Assembly (NCBI GenBank): GCA_026075535.2
Contig: AP026545.1
Span: forward strand, 1,240,001-1,304,000
Length of the DNA: 64,000 nucleotides
Direction of reading: 5' to 3'
Source of the DNA: Tricholoma matsutake
Taxonomy: Eukaryota; Basidiomycota; Agaricomycetes; Agaricales; Tricholomataceae
In this document: positions 7,216-62,275 of the stretch, one piece after another
Position numbering within the stretch: position 1 is the first letter of the stretch
Layout: every line of letters begins with the position of its first letter
Notes under the pieces: model-generated
What the model saw: only the letters and a program-made list of their open reading frames with translations
Told to the model about the DNA's origin: nothing
The model's database searches: none
Translations under genes and position numbers: made by a program

Positions 7216-7537
7216 AAAATAGTGAGTACATTACACTCCTCCACCTATTCTGGTCAGATTCTGGTTGGAATGCCCATTCCGATCAGAATTTCTGGAATTC
7301 CAGGGAATTCCATGGACATATATTTTTCTCACAATTCATAATTCCGATCGGACCGGAGGGTCAATTTTACCTCTGGAATCCCTGGAATCTACCCGGACTC
7401 ATTTTTACCTGGAACAGTCAGATCAACCGGATGCACAGCAACTAGTATAACTGGAATAACCAGAATAACTGGAATAACCAGAATAACCGGAATAACCGGA
7501 CTGCATGTGCTTTCCCAAATAAAATTTCGACGTACAA

Positions 7538-7603
7538 CAAGAATCGAACACTCGACCTTGGGTCTGCACACATAACAGCACACTTAACCACTGAGCTACC
7601 AAG
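7538..7603 (-). repeat. left outward tRNA-like module of E1
   Basis: The minus strand carries a TAGCTCAGTGG A box and a TGTTCGATTC B box. The same sequence recurs in E2 at 33221-33289. Transcription would run toward the left end through the TCCGG units. Confidence 0.75.
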
Positions 7604-7711
7604 CAATTATTCCTCTACATACATTTAATACTTTTATTACCCAACCAAGGTACGTAGTTAATCACAGCCATTAACGGAATAATTAATATTAATACTAATA
7701 AGTACGCATAT

Positions 7712-8244
7712 CACAAGAGGCAGAGCAATATATTAGCCTGGAGAATATGCCAAGAATAATAAGAGAAAAAGACACTTTTTCCCTTGGGAAAAATAAAAGG
7801 AACCATTAGTGAAAATGTGTCATTTTCCCACACTTTTCTCTTTGTTCTTACTTAACTAAAATGACTTATCTATTCCTGAGAGAAAATCAGATGAAAATAG
7901 AGGGGAAATATCTCTTTTTTTCAACTTTTTCTCTATTTTTGGTGAAAATAACATTTTTTCTCCTGATTTTCACAATATTTTCTCCTAGCAACAGATTAGA
8001 TATTTCTTCATAGAGAAAAAAGTGGGAATGTATGGGGAAATAACCTTTTTCTCCTTAAGTTTCTCAGGTGTTTCTTCTGGAAACAGGTTAGTTATTTTTC
8101 AGCAACAACCAAAAGGAGAAAACTGTGAGAAAATAACATATTTTTACTGATGGTTCCTTTAATTTTTCCCTAGTGAAAAAGTGTCTTTTTCTCTCATTAT
8201 TCTCAACATATTCTCTTAGGCAAAATATTGCTTTGCCTCTTGTG
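7712..8244. mobile_element. MITE with about 95-bp TIRs, nested in E1
   Basis: The ends CACAAGAGGCAGAGCAATAT and the inverted CACAAGAGGCAAAGCAATAT extend to arms of about 95 bp, with an A/T-rich interior lacking ORFs. TAT is duplicated at both sides (7709-7711, 8245-8247). The related element E2 has GCATATGCA at the corresponding position (about 33128-33136), which is the empty site. A 3-bp duplication suggests PIF/Harbinger; a TA duplication (Tc1 type) cannot be excluded. Confidence 0.85.
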
Positions 8245-8423
8245 TATGCATGACACGTGACACGTGACTGCCAGCTCACAACCACCACCACCACTGTCAC
8301 CAATGCCACCACCTCCTCCTCTCCACTCTACCACCACCACTGCGTGTGCACCCACCACCACCGTTCCCATGCCCACTGCCACCATCACCACCACCTTCAA
8401 ATGAGCCAACTGGACGGAACGTG

Positions 8424-8523
8424 GGCCCAAACGACGGCAATTGTCATTTGGGCCATAGGTAAGTTTTTTTCTTTTTTCTTTTTCTTTTTATCAATCAACT
8501 AATTGTAATTTATTGCTTTTTAG
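8424..8523 (+). other. GGCCCAAACGAC hairpin and intron-like segment of E1
   Basis: The hairpin GGCCCAAACGAC...GTCATTTGGGCC (8424-8454) lies 4 nt before GTAAGT. The intron-like stretch 8459-8523 (65 nt) is T-rich, has CAACTAAT as a possible branch site and ends TTTTTAG. There is no convincing ORF across it, so any spliced product is probably non-coding. Confidence 0.6.
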
Positions 8524-8839
8524 GCTATATACTACTGGGGACGACCTGTTGCAATGAAAAATGCGCAACGAAAAATATGCAACGCATGCCCACAGCCACC
8601 CAATCCCCTCCTCCCCTTTCAAATGGGATGTGAGGCTGTCGACATGGGCTAGGTGGGTGCAGAGGGATGCCAGGAGACCCCAGAAGGAGGATACCTGCCT
8701 AGTAAGCACCCACCAACCCCCGTACATGTGCCATGTCGCACTGACACACCCAAACCCCTCCCCCCCCGCCCCCCCAAAAAAAAAAAGACAGAAATCCAAA
8801 TGGGGGATGATGGCGACAAACAACAACAAGCCACCCACC

Positions 8840-9300
8840 CCCAGCCTCATGAGCAACTGCTCGTGGGGTGGAACATGGGTGGAACGATGCCCAGGCGCAG
8901 GGACAGGAGACAACAACGACACACCACCTGCCCCCAGCCTCACGAGCAACTGCTCATGGGGTGGATTGCGGGTGGAATGACAACAATGACAAGCCACCCA
9001 CCCCCAGCCTCACAAGCAACTACTTGTGGGGTGGAACGTTGGTGGAAAGATGCCTAGGCACCTGGATAGGAGATGATGACACACCACCCACTCCCAGCCT
9101 CATGAGCAACTGCTCATGGGGTGGATTGTGGGTGGAACGACAACAACAACAAGCCACCCACCCCCAGCCTCATGAGCAACTGCTTGTGGGGTGGAATGTG
9201 GGTGGAACGACACCCAGGTGCAGGGATAGGAGATGACAATGCACCACCTGCCCCCAGCCTCACGAGCAACTGCTCGTGGGGTGGATTGTGGGTGGAAGGA
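8840..9300 (+). repeat. six tandem GAGCAACTGCTC palindrome modules of E1
   Basis: Units of the form CCACC-CCCAGCCTCA-GAGCAACTGCTC-GGGGTGGA recur at about 8850, 8942, 9012, 9104, 9174 and 9262, spaced 70 to 92 bp. Each holds the 12-bp palindrome or a one-base variant, inside longer CCACCC/GGGTGG complementarity that could form a larger hairpin. Open frames through this array are by-products of the repeat. Confidence 0.7.
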
Positions 9301-9322
9301 CAGACAACAGCGGGGTCGCGTC

Positions 9323-9610
9323 CCCTCCCCCTCCCCCACACTTTGTGTGGGGAGGGATTTTTTTTGTACTTTTAATTATTTATTAGTATTGTGCCCCCCC
9401 TCCCCCATTTTGCGTGGGGAGGGATTTTTTTCTTCATATTTTTACCTCCCCCCTCGTGTTTGGTGTGAGGGGTTAGCTTTTTATGTATATAAATAAAACT
9501 CCTTTTATGCATAAATAAAACTCCCTCTTGCATCTTGTGAGAGGGAGGATTTTTTGTTTATGTACGTAATCACAATCATCCCCACTCCCTCGCATTCAAT
9601 GTGAGGGATG
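9323..9610 (+). repeat. tandem G/C-stem hairpins with T-tracts in E1
   Basis: Four to five successive hairpins have stems such as CCCTCCCCCACA/TGTGGGGAGGG and CCCTCTTGCA/TGTGAGAGGG, most followed by T runs of 5 to 9. The layout looks like intrinsic terminators, but in a fungus the T runs could stop Pol III. A close copy in opposite orientation lies in E2 (31627-31895). Confidence 0.65.
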
Positions 9611-9694
9611 TGGTTGATTAAAATTTTTTGATCTTAACTACTTTGAAAAAAATTAGAGTGTCAAGAATAAACCTTATATTACTAACTAATAATT

Positions 9695-9785
9695 CTCCTG
9701 TGGCTCAACTGGTTAAGCACACATGTTTGGTTTGTCATGTGATCACTCTAATCAAGATGTCTTGAGTTCAATCCTTACTCTGCAC
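9695..9785 (+). repeat. right outward tRNA-like module of E1
   Basis: A box TGGCTCAACTGG and B box GAGTTCAATCC lie in tRNA order, with an enlarged spacer between them. Near-identical modules sit in E2 (31453-31543, minus), E3 (37466-37550) and E5 (61840-61928). Confidence 0.75.
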
Positions 9786-9884
9786 AAATATATTTTGTAG
9801 GCACTTTGACAACTTAAGACTTGAAATTTGACTATCCATTAGGGTATATACTCTAAGTTGAGCATCTGGAGTAACCAGAATCTG

Positions 9885-10018
9885 GTCAGACTCACTGGAA
9901 TCCACTGGAATCCAATGGAATCCAATAGAATCCAGTGAGTCTGATTGGAATCCAGTGGAATCTGGTGAATCCGATCGGAATCCAGTGGACTCCAGTGAGT
10001 CCAATCGGAATAGGTGGA
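9885..10018 (+). repeat. subterminal GGAATCC array of E1
   Basis: About ten GGAATCC-like units (GGAATCCACT, GGAATCCAAT, GGAATCCAGT) lie between the tRNA-like module and the right TIR. The left end of E1 carries the related unit GGAATAACC. In E3-E5 the corresponding unit is GGACTCC. Confidence 0.7.
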
Positions 10019-10246
10019 GGAGTGTAAATTACTGAAAATAGTGCCAGATACAGGCATCAACATTGGCATCAGCATCAGCATTTGGCACAGAGAGTTATAA
10101 AGTGCATCAGCATCAGCAAACAAGACAGACAATTGGTACAGGCAATATTAATGGGTTAGATCCAGCAAAAAAAAACCATGTTCAAAATAACAATGTCAGT
10201 CCTAGCTACATAGATGTAAAAAGAGTTGTCATTGAGTAATGCCACA

Positions 10247-10919: not shown

Positions 10920-11101
10920 TGTGTGGATCAATATAACAGAGGTGATAACACTATCTTATGTGTTTAATCAGTGATCAGATCAGACATTATTTGTTTGTGT
11001 ATATCTATCAGATCTATCAAAACATGTGATTGTTGATTTTCATCATTTCACATATCAACATCCATCCATCCTGACCCATAGCTGTGCTGACTCATCTCAT
11101 C

Positions 11102-14297: not shown

Positions 14298-14327
14298 ATC
14301 GTACACCCTCACTGCCGCTTTGAAGTC

Positions 14328-29990: not shown

Positions 29991-30049
29991 CTGTAATTTA
30001 CCCTCCCCCACCTATTCCGGTCGGAGTCCAGTTATTCCAGTTATTCCGG

Positions 30050-31240
30050 TGATGATACTCAACCTGGGAAAACCACCTAAACTGCTGATGAGGCAATCAA
30101 TGATATTTCCAATGAGTCAGAGGAAGGTTGTGAGTTGTTCTGAATGTTTGTGGCCCAACCAATGGAAAGATGACCAGTTGGTACTAGTCGTGAAGGTAGT
30201 GCTATGAGAGACAAAGGCATTTGGCATGGTCTGACCAAGTATCAATCGAGGGCAATCGATGAGATCAACGGTGAATGAGTTTATCGTTGATGGTCAATAT
30301 GTGAATTCTGGGGACCTTTTGATAGGTTGATGGTATATGAAGGGTGCGGCAAACGGCTATAAAGTGTTGCAGAGGGTTGCTAGAACTAATGACGAGAGGA
30401 TTGAGGGAGGATTGAGGACGCGACTATCGCAGAGGTTTCTTGTCGATCGAGAAAACCCGCAGAGACTTAGATTGTTTTTAGAAAGTTGATTGGATGCTTA
30501 GAACTGTATACAAGACGATATGTGAAGACAATTTCTCTTTTTTTCCCAGTAGATACTACAGAGTTTTATATGTTTTAAAGAAACTTCCTAAAATGGAATG
30601 AGAAACATGTGTAGAACATGAGGCAAAAGATATGAGTTAAGGCACAAGGCCATAAAGGAGACTGGAATCTGAACAAGAAAGATATATATATCATATGATG
30701 AAAGAGTAATAAAGGGAAAGAACTAAAAGAGACTGTCCTTTGTGTATAAACTGCGCTAAGTCTTGCAATAATGTGTCCAGCGGGTTCTGTGCACAATAGG
30801 GACTTGGAATGAGGCTGACCTATGAATCAACAGGTTTGAGCACGAGTTGGAATACGTCCCAGTGCATGGTCTTCCACCATTTAGATAACAAAGGTGGCAC
30901 CCGATGTTGCTCATAGTTTCTCGATATCGATCAATGATGCTCGACGATGGTCGACGATGGTCGATGATGGTCAATCGTGGTTGCGGCTGTTCAAAGTTGA
31001 TTGGGGATGTTTGATGGTGGTGTAGGGGAATCTTAGGGACTTTCGGGGTAGTCCTAAGGTTGTGCGATGTGGGCTCTTGATACGATCGATGTTGCTGGTG
31101 ATGTTTCGACGTGGTCGATATGATATTGCGATCGATAGACTGGGTTGCGCTGCATCTGGGACGTCGTAGGAGTTAGCCGATGTGATTAGAATGATGCTAA
31201 AGTGGTGAATCGGTCCTTGAACCAAGGAGACGACCTATCA
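30050..31240 (-). mobile_element. solo LTR nested in E2
   Basis: The unit starts TGATGATACTCAACC and ends GACCTATCA, i.e. TG...CA ends in minus orientation, flanked by an exact CCGG duplication (30046-30049, 31241-31244). It shares both termini and the GACGATGGTCGA array with the 1.3-kb LTR family but is diverged inside. No internal domain remains. Confidence 0.82.
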
Positions 31241-31452
31241 CCGGTTGGAGTCCAGTTATTCCGGTCAGAGTCTGGTTATTCCGGTCAGAGTCCAGTTATT
31301 CCAATTGGAGTCCAGTTATTCCGGTCGGAGCCAGTTATTCTGGTTATTCCGACCAGATTCTGGTTACTCCAGATGCTCAACTTAGAGTGTATACCCTAAT
31401 GGATAGTCAAATTTCATGTCTTAAGTTGTCAAAGTGCCTACAAAATATATTT

Positions 31453-31543
31453 GTGCAGAGTAAGGATTGAATTCAAGACATCTTGATTAGAGTGATCACA
31501 TGACAAACCAAACATGTGTGCTTAACCAGTTGAGCCACAGGAG
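31453..31543 (-). repeat. outward tRNA-like module of E2 (left)
   Basis: On the minus strand: A box TGGCTCAACTGG and B box GAATTCAATCC. Near-identical to E1 9695-9785. Confidence 0.72.
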
Positions 31544-31626
31544 AATTATTAGATAGTAATATAATGTTTATTCATGACACTCTAATTTTTTTCAGAGTAG
31601 TGAAAGATCAAATTTTTTTAATTAAC

Positions 31627-31895
31627 CACATCCCTCACATTGAATCTGAGGGAGTGGGGATGATTGTGATTACATAGATAAACAAAAAATCCTCCCTCTC
31701 ACAAGATGCGAGAGGGAGTTTTATTTATATGCATAAAAAGCTAACCCCTCATGCTGAATGCAAGGGGGGAGGTAAAAACATGAAGAAAAAAATCCCTCCA
31801 CCATACAAAACGGGGGAGGGGGGGCACAATACTAATAAATAATTAAAAGTACAAAAAAAATCCCTCCCCACACAAAGTGTGGGGGAGGGGGAGGG
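31627..31895 (-). repeat. tandem G/C-stem hairpins of E2
   Basis: Inverted copy of the array in E1: stems such as CCCTCACATTG/CTGAGGGA and CCCTCTCACAAGATGCGAGAGGG, plus CCCCACACAAAGTGTGGGG, separated by A/T-rich spacers with A runs (T runs on the minus strand). Confidence 0.65.
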
Positions 31896-32454
31896 GACAC
31901 AGCCCCACTGTTGTCTGTCCTTCCACCCACGATCCACCCCATGAGCAGTTGCTCGTGAGGCTGGGGGTAGGTGGCTTGTCATTGTTGTCATTCCACCCAC
32001 AATCCACCCCACGAGCAGTTGCTCGTGAGGCTGGGGGTGGGTGGTGTGTCATTGTCATCTCCTGTCCCTGCGCCTGGGTGTCATTCCACCCACAATCCAC
32101 CCCACAAGCAGTTGCTCGTGAGGCTGGGGGTGGGTGGCTTGTCATTGTTCGTTGCTGTTGTCCCCTGTCTGGATTTCTGTTTTTTTCTTTTTTTGTTTTT
32201 TTTGGGGGGGGGGGGGTTTGGGCGTGTCAGTGCGACATGGCACGAGTACAGAGGTTGGTGGGTGCTTACTAGGCAGGTACCCCCCTTCTGGGGTCTCCTG
32301 GCATCCCTCTGCACCCTCCTAGCCTGTGTCAACAGCCTCACATCCCATTTGAATGGGGAGGAGGGGATCAGGTGGGTGTGGGCATGGGTTGCGCATTTTT
32401 CGTCATGGCAGGTCGTCCCCAGTAGTATACAACCTAAAAAGCAATAAATTACCA

Positions 32455-32945
32455 TTAGTTGATTTATAAAAACAAAAAGAAATAAGAAAAAACTTATCTA
32501 TGGCCCAAACAACGTTGCCATCATTTCGGCCCTTGTTCCGTCCAGTCGGCTCGCATTTTTCGTTGTGGCAGGTTGTCCCCAGTAGTATACAACCTAAAAA
32601 GCAATAAATTACAATTAGTTCATTGATAAAAAGAAAAAGAAAAAAGAAAAAAAAACTTATTTATGGCCCATCTGGCAGTAGAGTAGAACCTATAAAACAA
32701 AAGAAACAAGTTAGTTAGTTTATAAAAACAAAAAGCAAACAAAAAAAAACTTACTTAGGGCCCAAACAACATGATCTGCATCGTTTGGGCCTGTGTTCTG
32801 TCCAATCACATCGTTTGGGCCCATGTTATGTCTGGCAGTCGAGTAGAACCTATAAAACAAATGAAACAAGTTAGTTAGTATGAAAAAACAAGAAGCAAAC
32901 AAAAAAAAACATACTTAGGCCCCAAATGACGCAATCTGCATTGTT
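32455..32945 (-). other. four hairpin-intron modules in tandem in E2
   Basis: On the minus strand four intron-like T-rich stretches with (A/G)TAAGT starts and TTTTAG-type ends follow GGCCCAA segments (near 32500, 32660, 32760 and 32917). The best hairpin is GGGCCCAAAC...CATCGTTTGGGCC (32759-32790). Units repeat with a period of roughly 120-160 bp, so this is a local tandem amplification of the module. Confidence 0.55.
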
Positions 32946-33220
32946 TGGGCCTGCGTTCCGTCCAGTTGGCTTGTTTGAAGGTGGTGGTGATGGTGGCATT
33001 GGGCGTGGGAACAGTGGTGGTGGGTGCACATGCAGTGGTGGTGGTAGAGTGGAGAGGAGGAGGAGGAGGCATTGGCAACAGTGGTGGTGGTGGTTGTGAG
33101 CTGGCAGTCACGTGTCACGTGTCTTGCATATGCATACTTATTAATTATTCTGTTAATGGCTGTGATTAACTAGGTACCTTGGTTGGGTAATAAAAGTATT
33201 AAATGTATGCCCAAGAATAA

Positions 33221-33289
33221 TTGCTTGGTAGCTCAGTGGTTAAGTGTGCTGTTATGTGTGCAGACCCAAGGTCGAGTGTTCGATTCTTG
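33221..33289 (+). repeat. outward tRNA-like module of E2 (right)
   Basis: A box TAGCTCAGTGG and B box TGTTCGATTC, the same module as E1 7538-7603 in opposite orientation. It is followed by ATTCCGG units up to the right TIR. Confidence 0.75.
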
Positions 33290-33541
33290 ATGTGTGTCGA
33301 ACCTTTATTTGGGAAAGCACTTGCATTCCGGTTATTCCTGTTATTCCGGTTGTGATGAGTCCAGTCAGATTCCGGGGATTCCGGGTGTAAATTGGATCCT
33401 TATTCCGACCAGAATTGTGCTGCATAGGGAAAACTACATACAAAAAAAATTCCATCAGATTCCAGAAATTCCGGAAATTCTGGCTGGACGAACTGGAATC
33501 CAACTGGAATAGGTGGGGGAGTGTAAAGTACTCCTCTGGAC

Positions 33542-33847: not shown

Positions 33848-34776
33848 TCACTGAACAATATAACCTGCATGCTCAAACCAAGCTGTCGCCATCTCTGCTG
33901 TAATGCATCCACATGCCTCCAACAACACGAGTATGGGATCTTCAGCCCCACACAATATGGTGCCATGGTGACAAAGATGGGCCTTCCCTGTCAACTGACT
34001 GTCAGAACTATATAATTGTGAGGTAATTTGATGAACATACAAGTGCTGAATGACTCTTCTATTGGGCTGAGATCAGGCAAGTATGGAGGAAGATACAAGA
34101 GCACGATGCCAGCATCATTGAGTATTTCTTGTAGTGTATCAGTATGGTGGATTTGACAGTTATCTAATATCAGAACGCTTTGGACATCAGGGAATGTGTT
34201 CATCCGTGGAAGCTGAGAAGTCAGATCATAGCTATATGCAGCAGCATGAAGAGAACTACTGTAATACTAACAACCTCCTCGACAATGAAGTCAAAGAACC
34301 CAAAAGAGTCAAATGATCCAGGTTGTACTCACACTGCAATATAGCCAGTGGTACTCATAGCAGCAACAAGAGAGTAATGCTCAGTGCAAACAAAAGGGTC
34401 AACAAAATGTGGAGCCTGTCCAATATGTGCATGCCCATAGCATCGTGCAACATCATGCTCATTCTTGCTGGACTCATCAATCACCACAAACTCAGATCCA
34501 GTGCCTGAGAATTCGGTCTGAACTGCATGGAGAAAGTTGGTCCTTGTTTCTACATCTCTCTCGCATGCAATCTTGTGTAATAACTTTCTTGTCAATCCTG
34601 CCTTCTCCAAATTTTCTTGAAGAGCCGAGATTGAGATTGGAATGTCATGATGGATCACCCAAAACCATTGAAGCTCATCAATATATGTGTCTGGGTGGTT
34701 TTCATATTGACAGCCATGAGTACAGCCAGAGTGATGAGGCAAGGCCAGCCAGTGAGGGGTGAAAGAGGTTTGGTCA
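33848..34776 (-). pseudogene. Tc1/mariner-type transposase, catalytic and C-terminal part
   Basis: In minus-strand order: a short linker, the middle region (DIPISISALQENLEKAGLTR), the first catalytic Asp in FVVIDESSKNEH, then YSLVAAMSTTGYIA, an intron (GTTAGT to TTCTCAG), the second Asp in LILDNCQIHH and the Glu in PPYLPDLSPIEESFS, another intron (GTATGT to GTCAG) and an end reading ACGCITAEMATAWFEHAGYI. This DD-E order is that of the basidiomycete Tc1/mariner family. The N-terminal DNA-binding part lies beyond E3 at 37708-37867. A TGA after GYIAV and the E3 insertion disable it. Confidence 0.85.
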
Positions 34777-35098
34777 AGGTCTTTACTGTGCCCCACGTAT
34801 TCCGAGCCAGTCCACGCGGAATTTGGTGGACTCTGCACAGACTAGCTCGGACTGGACCCACTCATTTGGCTCAAATGTCCTGTATATTGCTTGGACACCT
34901 AGAGAGTCCACATGGACTTTTGTGGAGTCCGAGCTATTTTTGGACTTTTACTCGGAGTGCGCACGGACTTTGTCTGAGTGACATCAATTTACTTGGACTC
35001 GGACAGACTTGGACAGATACATGTCTGAGTCGAGTCCGAGTCGAGTCTGTGGATGCACAACAGAGGCTTAGCTGACTACAGAAAAATTATGTATTAAA

Positions 35099-35167
35099 GT
35101 AGAATTGAACCCCAAGCCTTGTGGCCATGCATAAATAGCACAGTTAACCACTACACCACAGAGCCAT
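35099..35167 (-). repeat. left outward tRNA-like module of E3
   Basis: On the minus strand: A box TGGTGTAGTGG (a full consensus match) and B box GGGTTCAATTC. The body differs from the E1 left module, so it was derived from or captured from a different tRNA. Confidence 0.78.
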
Positions 35168-35240
35168 TGTCAGTAAGTACAAACAAGTGCATTATCTAAC
35201 CATGTTTAAATCAGGTGACTCATGTGCATGTTCAAGATGC

Positions 35241-36531
35241 TGATAGGTTGTCTCCTCGGCTCAAAGGCCGATTCACCGTTTCGACCACATTCTAATCACA
35301 TCGGATAACTCGCACGAGGTCCCAGAAGCAGCATGACCACTCCTGACCAAGTCTACTGAGTGCGAGCATCGTATCGAATGCGATCGAACATCGTCGAGCA
35401 TCGTTGAACATCATATCGAACGCAATCGAACAGCGCAAGCATTGTATCAAATGTGATCAAACATCGTCGAGCATCATTGAACATTGTCGAGCATCGCGAG
35501 CATCATATCAAACATGGTCGAACATCGTCAAACATTGTTGAGCATCGTATCGAACACGATCGAACATTGTCGAACATTGAAAATCGACATTGGACACTAT
35601 ATCACTATTCCAATGGTCATTGCACACATGCCTGACGTATCCCCTACCATTGTCGAACAATATCGCACCAATATCGGGCCACAAACGAAGTCAGAAGAAT
35701 CTTCGAAAATCTTTGAAAAACATTGAACCTCGAAAAACATCGTTGGACACAGTATTTCCTATTCGAATGATCTTTGGATGCATGCTGGACACATGGGACA
35801 CTATATCGAGTATATCGAACACATTTCGACTGCATGTGCATGCATACAATCCACTCAAAGCAGTTTCTGATCTTCTATTCAATTTATAACAAGGACAGTC
35901 TGGTTTTAGCTATTCTTTCTTATTATTTCTTCATCATGTGTTATATTCACCCTTTCTAGGCTCGCTTTATTGCTCTGATATACTTATATTGTCTTTTGCC
36001 TCGAGTTTTCCACATGTTTGCCTCATGTTCTCTAGCCTTTTTAGGTACTTTCTTTATTTTATATAAAAAGATGTACTAGATACAAAGAAAAACAAGAAAG
36101 TCATCGTCTTCCTCCCAGATCACAGTGATTTGAGAGTACAGTTTAGTCTTATTCAGTCCGAAGTTTGGTGTTTTACACCAAACTTCCTCAAAAATCCTCA
36201 AAAATCCTCAAAAATCCTCACATTACGCTATTTTCGCTCTTGCTTCCCTCGATTAGCCTTTTCGTCTAGTCCCCCGATCTTGCATCCGAACATATCTGCG
36301 CACTCGAAATTCCTCGAAACCTCTTCGAAAAATATCGCGACATCTCGAAAAGCAATGCGACATCTTGAAAAGCAATGCGACATCTCGAAAAGCATCGCAA
36401 AGTCTCGCAAATCATCGCAACCCCTCGAAAATCATCGCAAAGTCTCAAAACACATTCTTTTAGCCACGAACTGCTTCGACAAGCAGTTCATTTTGTGGGT
36501 TTTGTTTGGGTTTCCGGGTTGAGTATCATCA
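35241..36531 (+). mobile_element. 1.3-kb solo LTR nested in E3
   Basis: The 1291-bp unit starts TGATAGGTTGTC and ends GAGTATCATCA, with an exact ATGC duplication on both sides (35237-35240, 36532-36535). It has a promoter-like TTTTATATAAAAAG (about 36056-36069), a GATCGAACATCGTCGAGC-type array (35365-35580) and a TCTCGAAAA(T/G)CATCGC array (36305-36450). TG-CA ends and a 4-bp duplication fit an LTR. The internal domain of the parent retroelement is nowhere in the window, so its class is unknown. Confidence 0.82.
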
Positions 36532-36716
36532 ATGCATCAACAATCATTGTTGATGTTGATCACCACCATCACTCTCGACGCCGCTGCCTCCCACCTCCCT
36601 CTACCACCACCACCACCCAGTCAGCCCCCGCCTCTGACACCTCTTGCACCAACAGCAACAAACAGCAAACTAGCTGAGCCGATGCAACAGGACCCAATGA
36701 GCCGAGCCAACACAAT

Positions 36717-36813
36717 GGGCCCAAACGATGATAATCATTGTTTGGGCCCCTAGTAAGTGTTTTTTTTGCTTTTTGTTTTATCAATCAACTAATTGTATTT
36801 TATTGCTTTTTAG
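36717..36813 (+). other. GGGCCCAAACGATG hairpin and intron-like segment of E3
   Basis: The hairpin GGGCCCAAACGATGA-TCATTGTTTGGGCCC (36717-36749) is followed by GTAAGTG and a 61-nt T-rich stretch (36753-36813) with CAACTAAT and TTTTTAG, closely matching E1. Confidence 0.62.
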
Positions 36814-37465
36814 GTTGTATGCTACTGGGGACGACCTGCCACAACAAAAAATGCGCAACCCATGCCCACACCCACCCGATCCCCTCCTTCCCATTCAAAT
36901 GGGATGTGAGGCTGTTGACATGGGCTAGGAGGGTGCCCAGGGATGCCAGGAGACCCCAGAAGGGGGATACCTGCCTAGTAAGCACCCACCAACCTCCATA
37001 ATCGCGCCACATCACAGTGACACACCCAAACCCTCCCCCCAAAAAAAAATACAGAAACCCAAACAGGGGACGATGGTGATGAACGACGACAAGCCACCCA
37101 CCCCCAGCCTCATGAGCAACTGCTGATGGGGTGGATAGTGGGTAGAATGACACCTAGGCACAGGGATAGGAGATGACAGTGCACCACCCACCCTCAGCCT
37201 CATGAGCAACTGCTCGTGGGGTCGTGGGGTGGGTTTTTTTTCTTCTTTTTCTTTTAGCCCTCCCCCACATTTTTTTTAAAAATCTATAGTTTGTAATGTA
37301 GTTATTATTAGTTTTTTTTGTATTTCTTTGATTGTATTGTATACTCCCTCACATTAGATGCGAGGGATGCAGTTAATAAAATTTATTTGTTCAATTTTTG
37401 AAAGATAAATACTTGAGTTTGAGTTTGAGTGTCATAAATAAACTATGTATTACTAACAAATAATT

Positions 37466-37550
37466 CTCCTGTGGCTCAACTGGTAGATCACATGTGTTTG
37501 GCTTGTTGTGTGATGACTTGGAGGTCTTGGGTTCAATCCTTGCTCTGCAC
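37466..37550 (+). repeat. right outward tRNA-like module of E3
   Basis: A box TGGCTCAACTGG and B box GGGTTCAATCC. It is followed by a short GGACTCC-like stretch to the right TIR. Confidence 0.74.
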
Positions 37551-37707
37551 ACCTATATTTTGTAGGCATGTCATGACTTTCATAAAGTCTGAAAAGCTTG
37601 GAACTCGTAAGATATCAAATTGACCCAGATTCTGCATACAGACTAGCTTGGACTCCACACAGTCTGTACGGAGTCCGCTAGGACATGTGGGGCACTGTAA
37701 ATTACTG

Positions 37708-37867
37708 GTTTGGTCATAGTTCTGAACTCATCAAAGATGTGTACCCATCGATAAAGGCTGGCTTGAGAATCACAGAGAGCATAGCAGATATCAGAATGAT
37801 GCCATCCAGCTTCCCAAAGTTTGAGTGCGCAATCCTTGAGGTCAGCACTGATATGATGATTGCCCAT
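37708..37867 (-). pseudogene. Tc1/mariner transposase, N-terminal helix-turn-helix
   Basis: It starts MGNHHISADLKDCALKLWEA and continues ICYALCDSQASLYRW and IFDEFRTMTKP, a homeodomain-like helix-turn-helix that would bind the transposon ends. It stops at the E3 duplication; the rest of the protein is at 33848-34776. Confidence 0.85.
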
Positions 37868-42314: not shown

Positions 42315-42993
42315 TAGGGCACGGCATGGGTATGGGTAACACCATGTGTTTCTGGTCATGGGTATGCACAGGTATGGGTACAGGTATGGGATTGCCATAC
42401 CTGGGCAACACCGTACCCTTTTCTACAGTGTTACGGGTATGTGTGGGTATGCCGGTACCCAGATTTTGGTCAGGTGAGTAATCATCTGACTTTGTTGAAT
42501 ACTCACGACACGTCTAATTCTAAACTATATGATGATCCAACCACCACCATAGCATGGCCCAAATGACACAAATTGTTGTTTGGGCCTATAGTAAGTTTTT
42601 TTGTGTTTCATTTCTAGTTTTTTTAAACTAATTGATTATGTTTCTTCTTTTTCAGGTTCTAAACTACTAATAATGATGGATGATGACAGCTAATGACACA
42701 CACCCATCACCCAGGCCCAAATGATGTGATTGTGTCATTTGGGCCCATGGTAATTTTTTTTCGTTTGTTTCTTTCATTTCCTAGGTTGGAATTCCCTCGG
42801 AATGAGGAGTTCACATGGAATCACCCCATGCCAACATTGACCAGGAGGAGGACCTGAGGACCCAACTGCCACCACAAGCAACTGCTCATGGGGTGGAAAT
42901 GGGGATCGACAACTCCAGGCACACCACCCACCCCAGCCTCATGAGCAACTGCTCATGGGGTGGATAGTGGGTGGAATGACAACAATGACCAGG
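42315..42993 (+). mobile_element. left part of a hAT-like element with hairpin-intron modules
   Basis: It begins TAGGGCACGGCATGGGTATG, the terminus type of the element at 49239-50249, and runs through GGGTATGGGTA units, two hairpin-intron modules and GAGCAACTGCTC palindromes (42882, 42943) to the gypsy LTR at 42994, where it is cut. No matching right end with an 8-bp duplication exists. Confidence 0.65.
42556..42655 (+). other. hairpin and 65-nt intron-like segment
   Basis: The hairpin GGCCCAAATGACA-TTGTTGTTTGGGCC (42556-42586) is followed by GTAAGTTTTTTTG, CTAATTGA and TTTTTCAG (intron-like 42591-42655). A second module (hairpin about 42714-42746) has only a 35-nt intron-like stretch (42750-42784) and lacks the branch region that its relative at 49817-49879 retains. 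Confidence 0.6.
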
Positions 42994-43394
42994 TGTTAGG
43001 GCGACACCCACTATCTGCTAGCTAAGACTGTGTGGGTTCTCTCTACAAGAAGGGGAAAGGATCTGCGCACGTGATGGGGGAATTGATGGTTTTGATGCGA
43101 GGGGTTATTAATAGGTGAGTTTGTTGCTATAGGCCTTTCACACTGAAAACATAGGTGGAATACCTAAGAGAACACAACTGGGGTCCCCTAGGCATATATT
43201 TAGGGTTTATATACTATGTTACATATATTGTACATTGTTGTTACTGATGCACTTGTACATGCACGTACATTTTGATGTGTGCGAAATAAAATTCTCATGC
43301 TATCAAAATGTAGCATCATTTGGCGTCATGTAGTGTAATTCGACATAATAAAATAAAATGAAAGTTTATTAGGTAATGGGGTGGTTTCCTAACA
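42994..43394 (-). repeat. 3' LTR of the second gypsy element
   Basis: The 401-bp LTR has TGTTAGG/CCTAACA inverted ends. Its closest relatives are 48642-49042 and the solo LTR 11979-12360. Confidence 0.9.
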
Positions 43395-49238: not shown

Positions 49239-50249
49239 TAGGGCACGGCACGGGTAACCCTCAGGTATATTTTCTTATACCCCTACCCATACCCATGAAC
49301 ACCATACCTGCATGGGTAGGGGTACAGTGTTACTGTGGGTTTCTGCGGGTTACCCGTGGTTATTCGTGGGTTTCAGCATGAATATGTATTTTAATAATCT
49401 AATTACACTAAATTAATATACAGAAAGTGACCCCCCTCTCGCATTTGGAGCAAGGGAGGGGGGTGGTGCCTGTAGTCACTGAGAACAGAATGAGTAACCC
49501 CCCCACTTGCATTTGCAGCGAGAGAGGGGGGGTGCTGCCTGTAGTTGTCAATCCCCATTTCCACCCCACGAGCAGTTGCTCGTGGCAGCAGTTGGGTCCT
49601 TGGGTCCTCCTCCTGGTCATTGTTGTCATTCCACCTGCTATCCACCCCATGAGTAGCTGGGTCCTCGGATCCTCCTCCTGGTCATCATTGTCATTCCACC
49701 CACTATCCACCCCATGAGCAGTTGCTCGTGAGGCTGGGGCGGGTGGTGTGCTGTCATGACGTGGTGGTGTTGGCGTGGGGTCGTTCCATGTGAACTCATT
49801 CTGAGGGAATTCCAACCTAGGAAATGAAAGAAACAAAATAGTTAGTTTACAAAAAAGAAACAAACAAAAAAAAAATTACCATGGGTGATGTGGCACTGTT
49901 GGGTGTGTGTCGTTAGCTGTCGTCATCCGTCATTATCAGTAGTTTAGAACCTGAAAAAGAAGAAACATAATCAATTAGTTTAAAAAAACAAGAAATGAAA
50001 CACAAAAAAACTTACTATAGGCCCAAATGATGATTTGTGTTGTTTGGGCCATGCTATGGTGGTAGTTGGATCGTCGTATAGTTTAGAATTAGACATGTCG
50101 TGAGTATTCAACAAAGTCAGATGATTACTCACCTGACCAAAATCCGGGTACCGGCATACCCGCATATACCCATAACACTGTGGAAAAGGGTATGGTGTTG
50201 CCCGGGTATGGCAATCCCATACCTGTACCCATACCCGTGCTGTGCCCTA
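49239..50249 (-). mobile_element. complete hAT-like non-autonomous element, 1011 bp
   Basis: The ends TAGGGCACGGCACGGGTA and inverted TAGGGCACAGCACGGGTA lie next to an exact 8-bp duplication AGTTTTCT (49231-49238, 50250-50257). The interior, in minus orientation, has GGGTATGGG units, G/C hairpins (about 49433-49463, 49499-49530), GAGCAGTTGCTC palindromes, two intron-like modules (49817-49879, 49951-50015) and a hairpin GGCCCAAATGATG...TTGTTTGGGCC (50020-50050). No transposase. Confidence 0.85.
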
Positions 50250-54194: not shown

Positions 54195-57100
54195 TCATGA
54201 GTCAATATCCATCATTTTATCAGAGCCAGACAACCAAGTAACATCAACATAGCTGAAGTCTGCAGGACCATAGAGATTGGAATGTGGGAGTGTGATGTGA
54301 GAAGGAGTGGGGAAGTCTATCTGAGAGCTAGTAGGGGATGCAGTACGAGGAGGTCTTTACACTCCCCCCCCCCAATCTGAGCAGACTCTGCTCAGACACT
54401 TGGATGGTCCAAGTACTGTCTGAGTACTGTCTGAGGACTTTGCTCAGACTTTGCTTGGACTTCTTTGGCTGAAAGTCCTGCCAAACTAAATGTCCAGTCC
54501 GAGCTGAGTCCGAGTGTCTGAGCGGAGTCTGAGTGGACCAGGACTCGTACAGTCCTAGGACTGTCCGAGTTGCTTATATAATTGACTGAAAAATCAGTGG
54601 CTACCGCAGGGATTGAACCCTCATAGTCACATGATAAAGTACATTTAAGGCAACAATATAACTGTAAGACTAAAGTATCATTACAGGTAGATAGTTTTAT
54701 CTCTCTATGTACCGCCCCAGCTGTGATGACAAATCACCACAGCTGCGTCACCAACGATGATGCCAGCTCATCATCGATCATCATCATTCACCACCAACCA
54801 CCACCACCACCACCACTCGATGATGATGCCTCCCTCCCATGTCCCGCTGCTGCCACTGCCCCCTGAACACCCCACAGCCACAGGCCCCGTGCCAGCACAC
54901 GATGAAATGGGCCCAAACAACGATAGAGTCGTTTGGGCCCCAGGTGAGTTTTTTCTTTTTTCTTTTCTCATGTTTTCTTTAAGCTAACACATTTTTTCAT
55001 TAATTATAGGTTATATCTATACTGTAGCAGCACAATGACCCCAAAACCACCAAACGAGGAACAACGACAAGACCACGACCCAGCAGCTGCCCCCACCAGT
55101 GCAAGCAACTGCTCGCATGGGGGAGAGCGGCTGCTAACAACAACAATGACCACAGGGAACAACGACACCACCCACCCCAGCCCTATGAGCCACTGCTCGT
55201 AGGGTGGACGACAGGTGGAACAACGACAATTAGGGGAGACCCCAATGACAGCCAGCACCCCCCATAACCGCCGCAGGCAACTGCTCATGGGTGGATGGGG
55301 GGTGCGAGAGTGCAGGTACTGACAGGAAGACAAAAAAGGCCCAAGAGACATCAACATCTCTTGGGTTCTAGATAAGTTTTTTTTTTCCTTTTCTCATTTC
55401 ATTTTTTGATTCTAACCAACTTTTTTTAGGTACAAACTACTACTGGCAACGACGACGATGGGGGACACCACCACCACCACCACTGCTGTGAGCCCTGCTC
55501 ACAGGGTGGAAGGAGATGAGGGGGAAGGGAGACGAGGGGGAAGAGAGACGAGAGGGAAGGGAGACGAGAGGGAAGGGAGACGATGACACCTGCCCCACAC
55601 CTACGAGCATCTGCTCATGGGGTGGTTCGGGGGGGAGAAGAATGGGCACAGGAGAGCGAGACGGCCAGGGGACAACCCAGGGAGAGACGAACGCCGCCAC
55701 GAGCAACTGTTGCTGTTTTTAATTTATTTTTATTATTGATAGTTATGGCCCCTCCCCTCGAGCTTGCGAGGGGAGGGCTTAGTATTATTTAGTTACCCAT
55801 ATTAATTACCCCTTGCACAGATGCAAGGGGGTCAATTTAATAATCTATTCATGATATATATAAAAATTAGATTTCACTAATAAATAGATATGATATATGT
55901 AACTTGAAATGACTACTTGGCTTAAGTGGTAGAGTGTGCATGTTTCATTGTCATGTGATTGCTAGTCCAGAAGGCTGTTGGTTCAATTCCTGCTGTGCAC
56001 ACATTATTTTGTGAGACTTATAAGACTTTCTCTAAGACTGGAACTCGGACTTTACTTGGACAGTACTTTAGAAGGTGTAAATAAATGCACAATTGATGTT
56101 GTCCGAGCAAAGTCCAAGTGCAGTCTGAGTGTCCGAGTGTCTGAGTGTCCGAGCAGAGTCCGAGCGGAGTCCACTCGGACTGGGAGGGGGAGTGTAAAGT
56201 ACTGAGTACGAGAGACATCGGAGTCAACATCAGGGACCTCGGCATTAAATGCAGCATTATCCTCACGGTTAGATTCATGGGTGGAATCAGTCTCTGAAGA
56301 TGAAAAGAAAACATCTGCTGCATCAGACGCAGTGGGAACTGCTGTTGGAATGGAAATTGTGGGGCCAGATGCTGAAGAGGTGGTGCCAGCAAGGTAGAAG
56401 GCAGCGGCATCAAAGCCAGTTAGGGATTGTGCTGTGATACCAGAAGCAGGAGGGGACGGATCTTCATCGCTCTGCCATGCCATGGCTGCCTCAAAGGCAG
56501 TTGGCTGGTCAGCACAAGGTGAATTATCTTCACTATCCCATGCCATAGCAGCCTGAGAGGCTGTGGGCACACTGAGTGGGTGATCAGCTGCAGCATCGTC
56601 CTCCCCATCACCATCATCATCACTGTCATCATCATCACTTTCGATATCCTCATCATCATTGGGAGCAGCATCGACATTGGCATAGGTGTAGCCCTCACCC
56701 TCACCCACATTGGCAATGGCAACAGCAACAGCATTCACATTAGCATTAGCAAATGGCTCATTCGACTCAGTGTCTGTAAAATAAAGGGCAGCATCAAGGC
56801 CAGTTACATTGGGTGGTGGACTGTAGTTGGCAGAGGCAGCTGTTGGGATGCTTGCTGTGATTGAATTCTCCTTGTCGTCGGCACCATCAGGCAGAGAGTA
56901 TGTGTACCCAGAGTGTTTTTCCCTTGCCCGTGGTTGTCTGGTTGGATCCTTCTCTGTGAGGTCAACACCCCAAGTCCACTTGTGGGACGCGGCAGGAAGA
57001 GACTGAAGCAGCTCAAGTTCAGACTTCGCATGTGCTGCAATATGGTTTGACTGTCTTGTTACTGATGCCTTTGAGGAGGCTGCCAGTGCCATGGCCGCTG

Positions 57101-57905: not shown

Positions 57906-59993
57906 TCACAAAGGGGAGTGATAATCAACATTTGTTGATCTGAATGCTTTGTCAGCCCTAAAGGCTAAGTCGTACCAGACAGCCTGCTGACGATGAGCAT
58001 ATGCTAGGCTACCAGGAGGGGTATTGTCAGAGATCAAGGTGGAGTGCCACTTCTGATTGTGATACATGAAATAGTGCACAGTCCACTACATTTTGTATGT
58101 GACCAGCAGAAGTTCCTCCTTCCATCTATTGCTCTGAGCCCATGATCTAAGCCAATGTACTCGACAGACTGAGAGATGTGAGTGGATTGAAAATAAATGG
58201 CATAAAATGTACATTCATTCCCAGAGTCGGCCACCATTGGCATTGGCATTGGCAGCGGCAGCAGCATCAGCACCAAATGCAGCATCCCCTAGATAACCAG
58301 ATTGGCAAGACTTGTGCCAAATCCAGGAAAGATGAAGGTTGGTTGAACCAGGCACATTGGGTTTAAGAATAGCTGTGCTAGCCTTCAGGTCATCCTTTGT
58401 TAACAGCTGAAACATACTTAATGTGTCGGCATCACATTGCAAAGCAACCAAGCACCTTCAGCAATGCATATACATTTGGGCATTCAAAGTAACATTGTCT
58501 ACCAATTCCTTGACCACAGATCTGGCCCGGATGTGAACACCCTTCCTGGGTGCCAGTCGAACGATATGCGAATATTGAAATGATTTTTTGGCAATGAGCT
58601 CTCCAAGCCGATTTAGCAAACAGCTTGCCTGGTTCTTCTGAAGCAGAATCTCCACTTTAGCAAGATGTCCATTGGATTGTAGTTGTATTTGTTGCTCTTC
58701 CACTGGAATGGCATATGTGACATCTGAAAATTGTCAAGTGCCTGCAGCTGGAGTTTCTTCATCTGAAAGGTCAAATTTGGCTTCATTGTCAGGGGTGATA
58801 CGTGAGGGGGCAATCTGATGATTGGCAGCACTTTGTAATTGTGTTAATGTTATCATATGGGAAGCAAGCACTTGTCTTTCACATTCAACAAATTGCACAT
58901 CCAAAACCTGCGGTGATTTACCAAGCCAACAGACTTGGTCTCATAGGTCAATCCTGCAAAACAATGGTGAGGTGAGATATACAGTCAAAAATTCAACATA
59001 CTGCATCTCTTCAACACTGATGGCAAAATCAATCCACTCCTCAACAGATTGAACCACTGTTGATGCAGTGTCCAATGCCATTGCTGTTGCTGTTGCTGTT
59101 GCTGGTGCTGGTGCCAATGCCGCTTCCATTGCCAGTGCCTGCATTGCATAAATATCCATCACCTTTACGTCAACAAGCCTCATTGCTTCTGCAGCTATCA
59201 CTTCATCTTCCCATTGACTGACAGCCTGGTTGCTGAATGTTGCTGTGAGTTGTATGTGATGCTTGCTGAGTTGCACGGAGGTCTCGAGGGCTTCTCAATA
59301 TTTTGAGCACAGTGTAATTGCCATTCCAAGCATTTTCTTGTGATTTGAATCTGTAGCGTGATCATCAAGCATTTCTGCCCAATGTGGCAAGGTTGCTGTT
59401 CTGACTGTGGGGGAAATGGAATTCAGTGTCAACCACAGAGACTCGAGTATTTTGCCTGCTACAATGCCAGACCCTGGAATGAAAGATGGAGCATAGTGAA
59501 AAAAGCATTCATCCTTGTGGCCATGAACATGCATAAGCCCAATGGCCTGGTCAATGGTCAAGCCAGCTGGAAGATGGGCACCAATACGTTCCTGAAGGTG
59601 GATAATGTACTGGCAGACAATGTTGTAAATGAGCATGACTCCCTGTTGAGGGTCAACTCTGGTGGTCTTCAGCGCTTGAAGGAAAGCAAAGTCAACATTC
59701 TTCTGTTGTTCTCCCCAAAACAGGTTTACCAATGCATTGGGGGCATAACAGCCATGCCGTGCACATGCAATGGCCACCAACCCAGTAATATCACAGGCAT
59801 TTGATGCCTGTAGAGCATTTGCAATGGCCTGGAATTTATTTTCACAAGGAGCCTTCTGGCCAAGCAAATATGCATCAGGCCAGCTTTGGACATTGGGAAG
59901 GGACTGGTACATCCTGTCAAGTGTTCTATGGCAGACAGGAGGAACTGCTCATATTCAGCCTTGTTTGGAGCCATGCCTGCTCCATCCCATAGG
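57906..59993 (-). pseudogene. KDZ-family transposase, N-terminally truncated
   Basis: Going down the minus strand: CDITGLVAIACARHGCYAPN, a GEQQKNVDFAFLQAL stretch, LIYNIVCQY, GLMHVHGHKDECFFHYAPSF, GSGIVAGKILESLW and LDDHATDSNHKK (59295-59912), the standard order of the KDZ (Kyakuja-Dileera-Zisupton) catalytic region. Downstream text (ERQVLASHMITLTQLQSAAN, an IVRLAPRKGVHIR block, DDLKASTAILKPN, RVHWLRSWAQSNRW, QAVWYDLAF) is the KDZ C-terminal region, ending at TGA 57906-57908. Stops and frame changes (for example after CSKY and at 58457) show decay. The N-terminal CxC zinc part is missing at the E5 junction. Confidence 0.85.
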
Positions 59994-60250
59994 AGGTCTT
60001 TACACTCCCCCACCTTTCCTAGTGGACTCTGACTGGAGTCCGACTGGACTGACCAGAGTCCAACTGGAGTCCACTGGGACTGGTCACCAGCCAACTGCCG
60101 GCAAAGTTGCCAGTCCAGTCCCAGTCCAGTCCGACCAGACTCTGAGTGGAATCCACTCAAACACTGGATTCCACTCGGACTAGTCCAGTGGAGTCCAGTT
60201 GGAGTCCAGTTGGAGTCCAGTTGGATTCCACTGAAAAAGTGTGTAAAAAA

Positions 60251-60324
60251 AGGAATCGAACCCAGATCCCTGTAGGTTGATTATGTAATTATAATATGCA
60301 ATATAACCAATACACCACAGTACC
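60251..60324 (-). repeat. left outward tRNA-like module of E5
   Basis: On the minus strand: A box TGGTGTATTGG and B box GGTTCGATTCC, the latter a perfect consensus. Related to the E3 left module. Confidence 0.78.
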
Positions 60325-60686
60325 TTGTGTAAGGTATCATCTATTTGCATTAGGTACCATGGTGCAGCTGTGTATGACAAAGCATATAGCCGCGTCATCA
60401 AATGTGCCAGCTCATCACTCACCACCACCACCACCACCACCACCACCGTCGACGCCGCCTCCCTCCTCTCCACTCTACCACCACCACCACTGCGTGGACA
60501 CCCACCACCACTGCTCCCATGCCCAATCCACCATCACCACCACCCGCAAACGAGCTGACTGGATGGGCTCTATGTAAGTTTTTTTTTGTTTGCTTTTTGT
60601 TTTTATAAACTAACTAACCTGTTTCTTTAGCTTTCTAGGTTATAATCTACTGGTAACGATGCCACCACCTGCAAACAAGCCAACAC

Positions 60687-60935
60687 GGGCCCAAACGACG
60701 CAGATCACATCGTTGGGGCCCCACATAAGTTTTTTTCATTTGATTTTTGTTTTTATAAACTAACTAACTCGTTTTTTTAGTTTTCTTGGTTATAATCTAC
60801 TAGTAACGACACCACCACCCACAAACGAGCCAATGCGGGCCCAAACGATGCAGATCGCATCGTTTGGGCCCTACATAAGTTTTTTTCATTTGATTTTTGA
60901 TTTTATAAACTAACTTGTTTTTTTAGTTTTCTAGG
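60687..60935 (+). other. tandem hairpin-intron modules of E5
   Basis: Two units of about 150 bp follow a first intron-like stretch at 60572. The second hairpin (60837-60871) has perfect 15-bp arms GGGCCCAAACGATGC around AGATC. In both units the expected GTAAGT reads ATAAGT after a C, as expected from a CpG-to-CpA change, so splicing there would be lost; the copy at 60572 keeps GTAAGT. Confidence 0.6.
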
Positions 60936-61482
60936 TTATAATCTACTAGTAATGACACCACCACCCACAAACAAGCCAACACACCCACCCCACACCTATG
61001 AGCCCCTGCTTGTAGGGTGGATTGTGAGTGTGTGCAGTCAACGACGATGACGATGCCGCCTACCAGCACCAGGACCCAGAATGACCCAGACCCAATGACA
61101 CCCATGCCAGCCCCCTCCTCCTGGATGTGAGGGTGTCGATAAAGGATAGGAGACAGCAGAGGGGCACCGGGAGACCTGCGGAGCAGGATACCCACCTGGT
61201 AAGCACCCACCTACCCCCTCCCTTGCATGCCACATCACTGACCCCTCCCCCCAACCCCTCCAAACTAGGAGACCCACAAAACTGACAACACACCCACTCC
61301 ATGCCAATGAGCACCTGCTTGTCACCTGGATGGTGGGTACACCAGGGCTATGACCACCACGGCATCCATCCCCACGCCTACAAGCCTCTGCTCATAGGGT
61401 GGATGATGGGTGCGGCTTGCTACGGCGACAGACATGTGCGAGGAGGGGTGGGCGATGACACCCACCCCAGACCGCATCCCCC

Positions 61483-61736
61483 AACCCCCCCTCCCATGCA
61501 TTTTGCATGGGGAGGGGTCTTTATTATTTTTAATTTATCTCTGCCCCCCCCCCTCGCACCGAATGCGAGGGGTATATATATTGTAGTACTTATGAATCCC
61601 CCCCTCGTGCCAAACGTGAGGGGTTCAGTTTTTTATGTACATAGTAATAATCCCCCCCCTCTCGCAAGATGCGAGAGGGGTTTTTTTTTGTTTATTATTA
61701 TATTATACCCACTCCCTCGTGTCCTACACGAGGGAT
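61483..61736 (+). repeat. tandem G/C-stem hairpins with T-tracts of E5
   Basis: Stems: CCCTCCCATGCA/TGCATGGGGAGGG, CCCCTCGCA/TGCGAGGGG, CCCCTCGTG/CGTGAGGGG, CCCCTCTCGCA/TGCGAGAGGGG and CCCTCGTGT/ACACGAGGG. T runs follow several. Loops differ while the stems are kept. Confidence 0.7.
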
Positions 61737-61839
61737 GTGGTTAATTAAAATTTTTTGATCTTAATTGTTTAAAAAATGCCTCCTCGAAGAATATGAAAAG
61801 TTGAGTCATGAATAAACCTTATATTGATCCCCAATAAAT

Positions 61840-61928
61840 CTCCTGTGGCTCAAGTGGTTGAGCACACTTGTTTGGTTTGTCATGTGATTCCTTATGGTGA
61901 GGTCTTGAGTTCAATTCCTGCAGTACAC
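61840..61928 (+). repeat. right outward tRNA-like module of E5
   Basis: A box TGGCTCAAGTGG and B box GAGTTCAATTCC. Confidence 0.76.
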
Positions 61929-62275
61929 AAATTTATTTTGCAGGTACTTTATGAAATTCACCAAGTCCGAAGTCCTTTGAGCTCATATCCAATTGACTTA
62001 TCATTTGGTTGCACTCGGACTCCACTCAGACTCCAGTTGGACTCCACTCAGACTCCAGTTGGACTCCACTTGGACTCCACTTGGACTCCACTTGGACTCC
62101 ACTTGGACTCCACTTGGACTCCACTTGGACTCCAATGGGGGATTGAACTCTACATGACTTAGTGTAGTTCAATTGGACTCCACTTGGACTCCACTTGGAC
62201 TCCACTCAGACTCCAGTGGACTCTGGTCAGTCCAGTTGGAGTCCACTAGGACAGGTGGGGGACTGTAAAGTACTG

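Follow-up and report, generated by a model that had tools for sequence, protein, structure and literature searches.

Terminal-inverted-repeat elements of Tricholoma matsutake with an outward-facing tRNA-like promoter module near each end

The window analyzed here is a stretch of 64,000 nucleotides (C8:1240001-1304000) of the telomere-to-telomere (T2T) assembly of Tricholoma matsutake, which has 161,040,721 bases in 13 contigs, the total given for TMA_r1.0 (PMC10627285). For the T2T assembly, chromosome 8 is reported as 11,264,506 bases and repeats as 71.6%, with unclassified repeats making up 25.4% of the sequence (PMC10211490). The window contains five elements (E1 to E5) with terminal inverted repeats (TIRs), and near each end of each element there is a module of an A box and a B box, as in the promoter of a transfer RNA (tRNA) gene, that points out of the element. 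E1 to E5 are almost certainly non-autonomous TIR elements, and they are members of a high-copy matsutake cut-and-paste DNA transposon family. An earlier note on this DNA had proposed five elements with related termini, and all of them were found where it had placed them. The elements and their target-site duplications (TSDs) are as follows.

E1, 7224..10034, + strand (G-end left): TIRs; exact 8-bp TSD AAAATAGT at 7216-7223 and 10035-10042
E2, 29991..33533, - strand (G-end at 33533): TSD CTCTGGAC at 29983-29990 and 33534-33541
E3, 34776..37707, + strand: TSD GTTTGGTC at 34768-34775 and 37708-37715
E4, 54350..56204, + strand: TSD AGTACGAG at 54342-54349 and 56205-56212
E5, 59993..62275, + strand: TIRs; without TSD

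The two ends of an element are of different kinds, a G-end (G-AGGTC or G-AGTAC, with A in E3) and a C-end (C-AGTAC, C-AGTAA or C-TGTAA), and both lead into TTTAC (TTAC at the G-end of E1) followed by a pyrimidine-rich, mostly C stretch. With the outer base assigned to the element, the TSD was exact over 8 bp in E1, E2, E3 and E4 and absent in E5. The earlier note had described 9-bp duplications, two exact and two with one mismatch; by the present count their length is 8 bp, and the one-mismatch cases came from counting one extra base.

To extend the comparison beyond the window, a set of 21 complete elements was assembled, consisting of E1 to E5, three elements (L005, L006 and L008) from eight loci retrieved by searching with bases 1-476 of E1, and 13 elements from loci on contig 1. 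One of the eight E1-query loci was E1 itself, and in four the far end was not visible. The 13 elements came from 20 loci, all on contig 1, that head the list of exact matches to the terminal sequence AGNNNTTTACACTCCCCCA (947 genome-wide, and 0 for the reversed pattern); a partner for the matched end was found in 12, and L028 contributed a different element from that locus. Left out of the counts were the matches at L009, L019, L021 and L023-L026 and the L028 match itself, these eight ends having no accepted partner within about 7.4 kb; the sole partner candidate at L026 was a chance-like match inside a retroelement.

The elements are mostly 1.75-2.8 kb long, more where they contain inserts, and have short TIRs and subterminal arrays. 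Seven subfamilies were seen (E1/E2, E3, E4, E5, L022, L052 and L028-nested/L075). The TSD was exact over 8 bp in 15 of the 21 elements (for L006 it was taken from a separate comparison, as its right flank was absent from the main TSD table), had one mismatch in two (L010, L014), showed one copy offset by one or two bases in two (L027, L028; by eye) and was absent in two (E5, L022). An additional nested element beyond the 21 has an exact 8-bp TSD. No transposase-like open reading frame (ORF) was noted in the ORF lists of the complete elements, the interiors of which were not profile-scanned.

The modules of E1 to E5 are listed below, T4 denoting a run of four T, and so on. All ten point outward, as the earlier note had it, although the C-end module of E2 lies behind an insert and the left module of E4 has a weak A box.

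E1 left module, 7521..7598, - strand: A box 7587-7598, B box 7540-7550, T4 7521-7524; outward
E1 right module, 9701..9796, + strand: A box 9701-9712, B box 9765-9775, T4 9793-9796; outward
E2 G-end module, 33229..33287, + strand: A box 33229-33240, B box 33277-33287; T3 only, no T4; outward
E2 C-end module, 31442..31537, - strand: A box 31526-31537, B box 31463-31473, T4 31442-31445; outward
E3 left module, 35082..35158, - strand: A box 35147-35158, B box 35101-35111, T5 35082-35086; outward
E3 right module, 37472..37561, + strand: A box 37472-37483, B box 37530-37540, T4 37558-37561; outward
E4 left module, 54589..54672, - strand: weak A box 54661-54672, B box 54609-54619 (10/10), T5 54589-54593; outward
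E4 right module, 55918..56010, + strand: A box 55918-55929, B box 55980-55990, T4 56007-56010; outward
E5 left module, 60245..60317, - strand: A box 60306-60317, B box 60252-60262, T7 60245-60251; outward
E5 right module, 61846..61939, + strand: A box 61846-61857, B box 61908-61918, T4 61936-61939; outward

The orientation of the modules was evaluated by scoring pairs of A and B boxes within 600 bp of every element end. An outward-strand module was found at 41 of the 42 ends, and when the search was moved inward past the insert at the remaining end, the C-end of E2, the count became 42 of 42. The E2 C-end module sits about 1.5 kb inward because an insert of ~1.2 kb lies outside it (by eye). 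The best outward score was higher than the best inward score at 37 ends, equal at four (L008, L013, L014, L022 left) and absent at one (E2 C-end). In a looser scan, 76 modules were found in the 21 elements, compared to a mean of 26.3 (17-42) in 20 Markov-randomized sets, and 12 additional hits lay elsewhere in the window. Because the subterminal arrays mimic the boxes, the box score alone is weak evidence, and the case for an outward orientation rests on the recurrence of the same recognizable modules in comparable positions. The distance from the element end is about 120-370 bp in most copies. L028 contains another element, nested close to its left end, and the left module that was scored belongs to this nested one; the outer element has its own left module beyond it, and both modules point outward.

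The association of TIRs and modules was then quantified on a larger sample. The start of the right module, CTCCTGTGGCTCAANTGGTTNAGCAC, had 1,761 matches in the genome with up to two mismatches, and the reversed pattern had 0. The comparison used contig 1, with 74 of 100 listed TIRs (up to 10.52 Mb) and 99 of 100 listed places of CTCCTGTGGCTCAANTGGTTNAGCAC, which are exact matches. For 44 TIRs a module lay no more than 4 kb away on the inner side; 43 of these modules pointed outward at the far end and one pointed the opposite way. It was also found that four TIRs had a module on the outer side; for 30 TIRs there was no module in the list, which omits modules having mismatches. The earlier note had staked its proposal on modules that are neither absent nor turned inward at random and on ends that co-vary with duplications: in the samples examined a module is present at 42 of 42 ends, 43 of the 44 TIR-linked right modules face outward, and ends and TSDs do co-vary, at 8 bp.

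Eight right modules without a stringent TIR nearby were inspected individually. All eight lay within the same type of array, six with a recognizable end: a standard end no more than 405 bases from the module at L074, L076 and L079, and a variant TTTGCACTCC-type end (by eye) at L075, L077 and L080. At L078 and L081 the array was of the same type and the end was not visible. None of the eight looked like a free-standing short interspersed nuclear element (SINE). At another locus, L052, the similarity to E1 and E5 seen by blastn close to the element end spans the module and at most about 50 bp further, not the array.

Several properties of the modules go beyond the boxes. Of the 42 modules, 40 have a run of at least four T (T4-T7) within 45 nt past the B box, whereas such a run was present in only 9 of 1,342 same-strand windows lying further toward the outside and in 18% of windows from the interior. 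The first T run begins 13-17 nt past the B box in 33 of these 40 modules, where the terminator of a tRNA gene is normally found; it begins at the B box itself in six E5-type left modules and at +4 in the left module of L014. Within the A-to-B body there was no run of at least four T in 2,817 bp, in contrast to 49 in 8,400 bp directly upstream. Among the ARAGORN-called tRNA-Ile genes of this genome, which are high-copy, T4 follows the gene, and at other tRNA-like loci T3, T5 or T6 follows (10 bases of flank in most). It was also observed that tRNA-Ile(UAU)-like genes are high-copy on contigs 1-3 and at L064, with near-identical tandem pairs ~295 bp apart.

The mean information in an alignment of 13 modules, hand-chosen from the seven subfamilies, was highest in the B box (1.56 bits), followed by the A box (1.39) and the T run (1.15), with 0.87 for the remainder, and 0 of 10,000 column permutations were equally extreme. 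Because the representatives were hand-picked and the alignment may favor the boxes, this score is support rather than proof. The sequence between the boxes differs among subfamilies. In the window, ARAGORN called no tRNA, Rfam gave no match at the gathering threshold and the Infernal tRNA model gave none at E up to 10; the E5 right and E3 left modules scanned alone likewise had no tRNA-model match and no Rfam gathering-score match. The earlier description of the modules as tRNA-like thus stands for the A/B-box promoter and falls for the tRNA model. As judged from these motifs, the modules are tRNA-like in the promoter only, that is, tRNA-derived and no longer tRNA-shaped.

Taken together, the modules look like complete short genes for RNA polymerase III (Pol III), and they are probably kept as Pol III units. 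The predicted RNA would be about 85-110 nt, assuming a start about 12 nt upstream of the A box. Because the T4-T7 run precedes the subterminal array in 40 of 42 modules, the main transcript should end ahead of the array, and the transcript across array and TIR that the earlier note had envisaged is unlikely to be the main product. Any read-through RNA would exit the element, because the arrays are almost T4-free on the outward strand.

The superfamily of the elements and a possible autonomous partner were sought together. Zisupton and one Dileera family are described as having an 8-bp TSD, the length that is also usual among hAT elements (PMC12730594), so that the TSD here is compatible with hAT and with Zisupton or Dileera of the KDZ group. 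Only 6 of 18 TSDs had T at position 2, and only 3 of 18 had A at position 7. Therefore, the nTnnnnAn pattern preferred by hAT elements was not matched. Profile matches to hAT, MULE and KDZ transposases are all present in the genome. In the hAT loci examined (20 of 151 matches; 449 candidates, 150 scored), no TIR was held in common with the family. An apparent end at these loci, CAGTAATTTA, was considered as a partner terminus and rejected, since the copies remain alike past it, and it was judged to be internal.

At locus L052, hairpins, a right module facing outward and an end of the TTTAC type come after a KDZ gene. This did not establish a KDZ element as the autonomous partner: in a query with the joint between KDZ gene and module (40 candidates scored of 1,983) L052 alone spanned the joint, whereas the other candidates matched one side only, and four KDZ loci were examined. 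A comparison by eye of hAT, MULE and KDZ positions on contig 1 with the TIR and right-module places gave no link beyond what was judged chance. Pfam searches of 10 ORFs from the unpaired loci and the window gave no match for eight; the other two were a PIF1 helicase, which we take to be Helitron-like, and a KDZ fragment. The autonomous relative with the same TIRs and a transposase that the earlier note had suggested searching for was not found among the 20 hAT and 4 KDZ loci examined. A KDZ transposase fragment (PF18758, E 5.1e-35) lies at 59295-59948 of the window, between E4 and E5. The gene region immediately upstream of the KDZ transposase gene at L053 (L053:600-2140) could be, by eye, a TET/JBP-like dioxygenase candidate; such dioxygenases are reported in KDZ elements (PMC12730594).

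What the sequence shows is the architecture of the elements, the 8-bp length of their TSD, an outward orientation of the modules in the samples tested, and promoter and terminator motifs that are conserved across diverged subfamilies. From these we infer Pol III occupancy, an effect on chromatin and mobilization, in the following way. TFIIIC, TFIIIB and Pol III would assemble on both modules, and this assembly would prevent nucleosomes from covering the adjacent TIRs and transposase-binding arrays and would shield them from silencing, in a genome of which about 72% is repeats. A transposase supplied in trans could then reach both termini. The short RNAs would stop ahead of the arrays and would be mainly by-products, and the symmetry would reflect a module that was once part of an ancestral long terminal inverted region. 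We give a probability of roughly 45% to the full statement, that these are non-autonomous TIR elements whose paired Pol III units keep the ends accessible or insulated for a trans-acting transposase.

The modules might instead be passive relics, in which case one end once captured a tRNA gene or a tRNA-derived SINE, TIR conversion then produced the second copy at the other end, and the pair has been inherited since, so that the outward symmetry would reflect descent and not function. The left and right modules of L022 are alike over the first ~30 bp (by eye), some pairs resemble inverted copies, and the state of the module is the same throughout the copies of one subfamily, all of which a relic would explain. 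Against it, conservation in seven subfamilies is stronger in the two boxes and the T run than in the remaining module sequence, and the body is free of T4; we regard this explanation as unlikely.

It is also possible that the Pol III RNAs act themselves, with short or read-through RNAs regulating or guiding transposition, sequestering a host factor or feeding small RNAs. The combination of a T4-free body and a conserved terminator is that of a truly transcribed unit, and the outer arrays, at 9 T4 runs in 1,342 outward-strand windows, would let an extended RNA pass. However, the T run lies ahead of the array in nearly all modules, and the variable inter-box sequence and the lack of a tRNA-model or Rfam gathering-score match in the two isolated modules would be odd for a functional RNA. 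Such a role appears rather unlikely.

That the elements are SINE-like retroelements, single or in inverted pairs, amplifying via RNA is strongly disfavored: tRNA-like Pol III heads and a high copy number would be expected of them, but fixed 8-bp TSDs with TIRs at exact ends and free modules in 0 of 8 cases would not, and just 13 SINE copies are counted in matsutake (PMC10211490). A DNA transposon superfamily that targets multicopy small-RNA genes has been published (PMC3706591), yet here the modules are inside the TIRs and TSDs rather than outside and the flanking targets vary among copies, so that host tRNA genes struck by such a transposon, with tRNA sequence at the ends by target choice, are a scarcely credible source.

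Several points weigh against the interpretation of the modules as Pol III units that keep the ends accessible. The best inward (control) scores reach 1.8, with ties at 4 of 42 ends, and some modules are damaged: L014 left is degenerate, L017 right has partly lost its A box, the A box of E4 left is weak, and the left modules of E2 and L016 have no T4 run. The scarcity of T4 in the subterminal arrays is partly a matter of repeat composition. Copies of one subfamily are non-independent, which leaves roughly a dozen types of module as independent observations. Because a conserved terminator and a T4-free body argue for transcription, these features fit active RNAs as well as a role in chromatin. 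Finally, mobilization in trans is a presumption, because an autonomous partner was not found.

With somewhat more doubt than belief, we propose further that the family is an undescribed class of DNA transposon in which the matched outward pair of Pol III genes is under selection and integral to mobility, keeping the termini competent for transposition in silenced chromatin. If this is true, DNA transposons can draw the machinery of tRNA transcription to the edges of the element, and the success of a mobile element would be tied to Pol III and to the boundary function of TFIIIC. It would also make directly testable the long-standing question of how non-autonomous elements remain mobilizable in silenced, repeat-rich fungal genomes.

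Two further insertions in the window served for comparison.

F2, 49239..50249, - strand: E-type internal cassette, TIR TAGGGCACRGCACGGGTA, exact 8-bp TSD AGTTTTCT
F1, 42315..42994, + strand: F2-type TIR and the same cassette; cut by a long terminal repeat (LTR) element, one end visible

Both carry TAGGG-type ends unlike those of E1 to E5 and were absent from the list in the earlier note. No module scoring at least 1.65 was found at the one visible end of F1 or in F2, the latter scanned on both strands. Because F1 and F2 share the cassette yet show no module, the modules seem, from these two elements, to be associated with E-type ends and not with the cassette. The arrangement suggests exchange of cassettes between transposons with different ends.

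The interior, read on the G-to-C strand, contains hairpin arrays and intron-like signals, and may be a spliced, structured non-coding RNA. The intron-like motifs (GTRAGT with a T run, CTAAY and TAG) occur at window positions 8459, 32754 (-), 36753, 54944 and 60574 in E1 to E5, all on the G-to-C strand, and at 42591 and 50015 (-) in the comparison insertions, often directly after a GGGCCCAAACGAtG...CATCGTTTGGGCCC hairpin; they are on that strand, the only one scanned, in 16 of 23 element sequences. A GAGC-loop-GCTC hairpin occurs in 71 copies, 46 of them distinct, in the 23 element sequences. In these hairpins 400 of 460 cells pair, compared to a shuffle mean of 376.5 and a maximum of 388; one pair occurs in CG, TA and GC forms, and another position has a C-A mismatch in 13 of 46. 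Near the C-end there are C-rich hairpins followed by T5 or longer (about 9330-9560 in E1), of which each element has 0-3 when the G-to-C strand is read and 0-1 when the opposite strand is read. E2 (about 30060-31240) and E3 (35230-36540) each contain an insert of ~1.2-1.3 kb with TGAT...ATCA ends (by eye), possibly solo LTRs. E5, which has no TSD, seems by eye to be placed at the junction of two unlike sequences.

The family resembles the non-autonomous TIR elements of the hAT, Zisupton and Dileera groups in its TIRs, 8-bp TSD, subterminal repeats and high copy number, but only here are there two outward Pol III modules, and the TSDs lack the hAT pattern. With tRNA-derived SINEs it shares, at the level of motifs, tRNA-derived A and B boxes as a Pol III promoter. 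SINEs have a single head, no TIRs and a TSD of variable length, whereas here there are two heads inside TIRs and a fixed 8-bp TSD. In Aspergillus fumigatus, AfuSINE2 is a tRNA-derived SINE with TSDs of 4-14 bp (PMC5063351). The miniature inverted-repeat transposable element MER6 carries a V-SINE domain (PMC6887750) and the SINE HaSE2 has a mariner-like 3' part (PMC3272025); these combine SINE and DNA-transposon sequence in one mobile unit, as here, and their abstracts mention no paired outward Pol III promoters. A repeat known from the same genus, megB1 of Tricholoma and other Agaricomycetes, is a dimeric Alu-like element that lies in intergenic spacer 1 of the ribosomal DNA in many Agaricomycetes, with a copy outside the rRNA gene in section Caligata, and in the part of that report consulted it is not described as a TIR transposon family (PMC10627285).

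In the open-access literature, as far as its accessible text goes and with subscription papers and Repbase outside its scope, we found no TIR element that carries a pair of outward-facing tRNA-like promoters, in agreement with the earlier note, which knew of no described class with this symmetry. Genes for tRNA and TFIIIC sites act as chromatin boundaries, and there, as here, Pol III units stand at the borders of a domain; those of the matsutake elements, known from sequence alone, are in contrast mobile and borne by a transposon.

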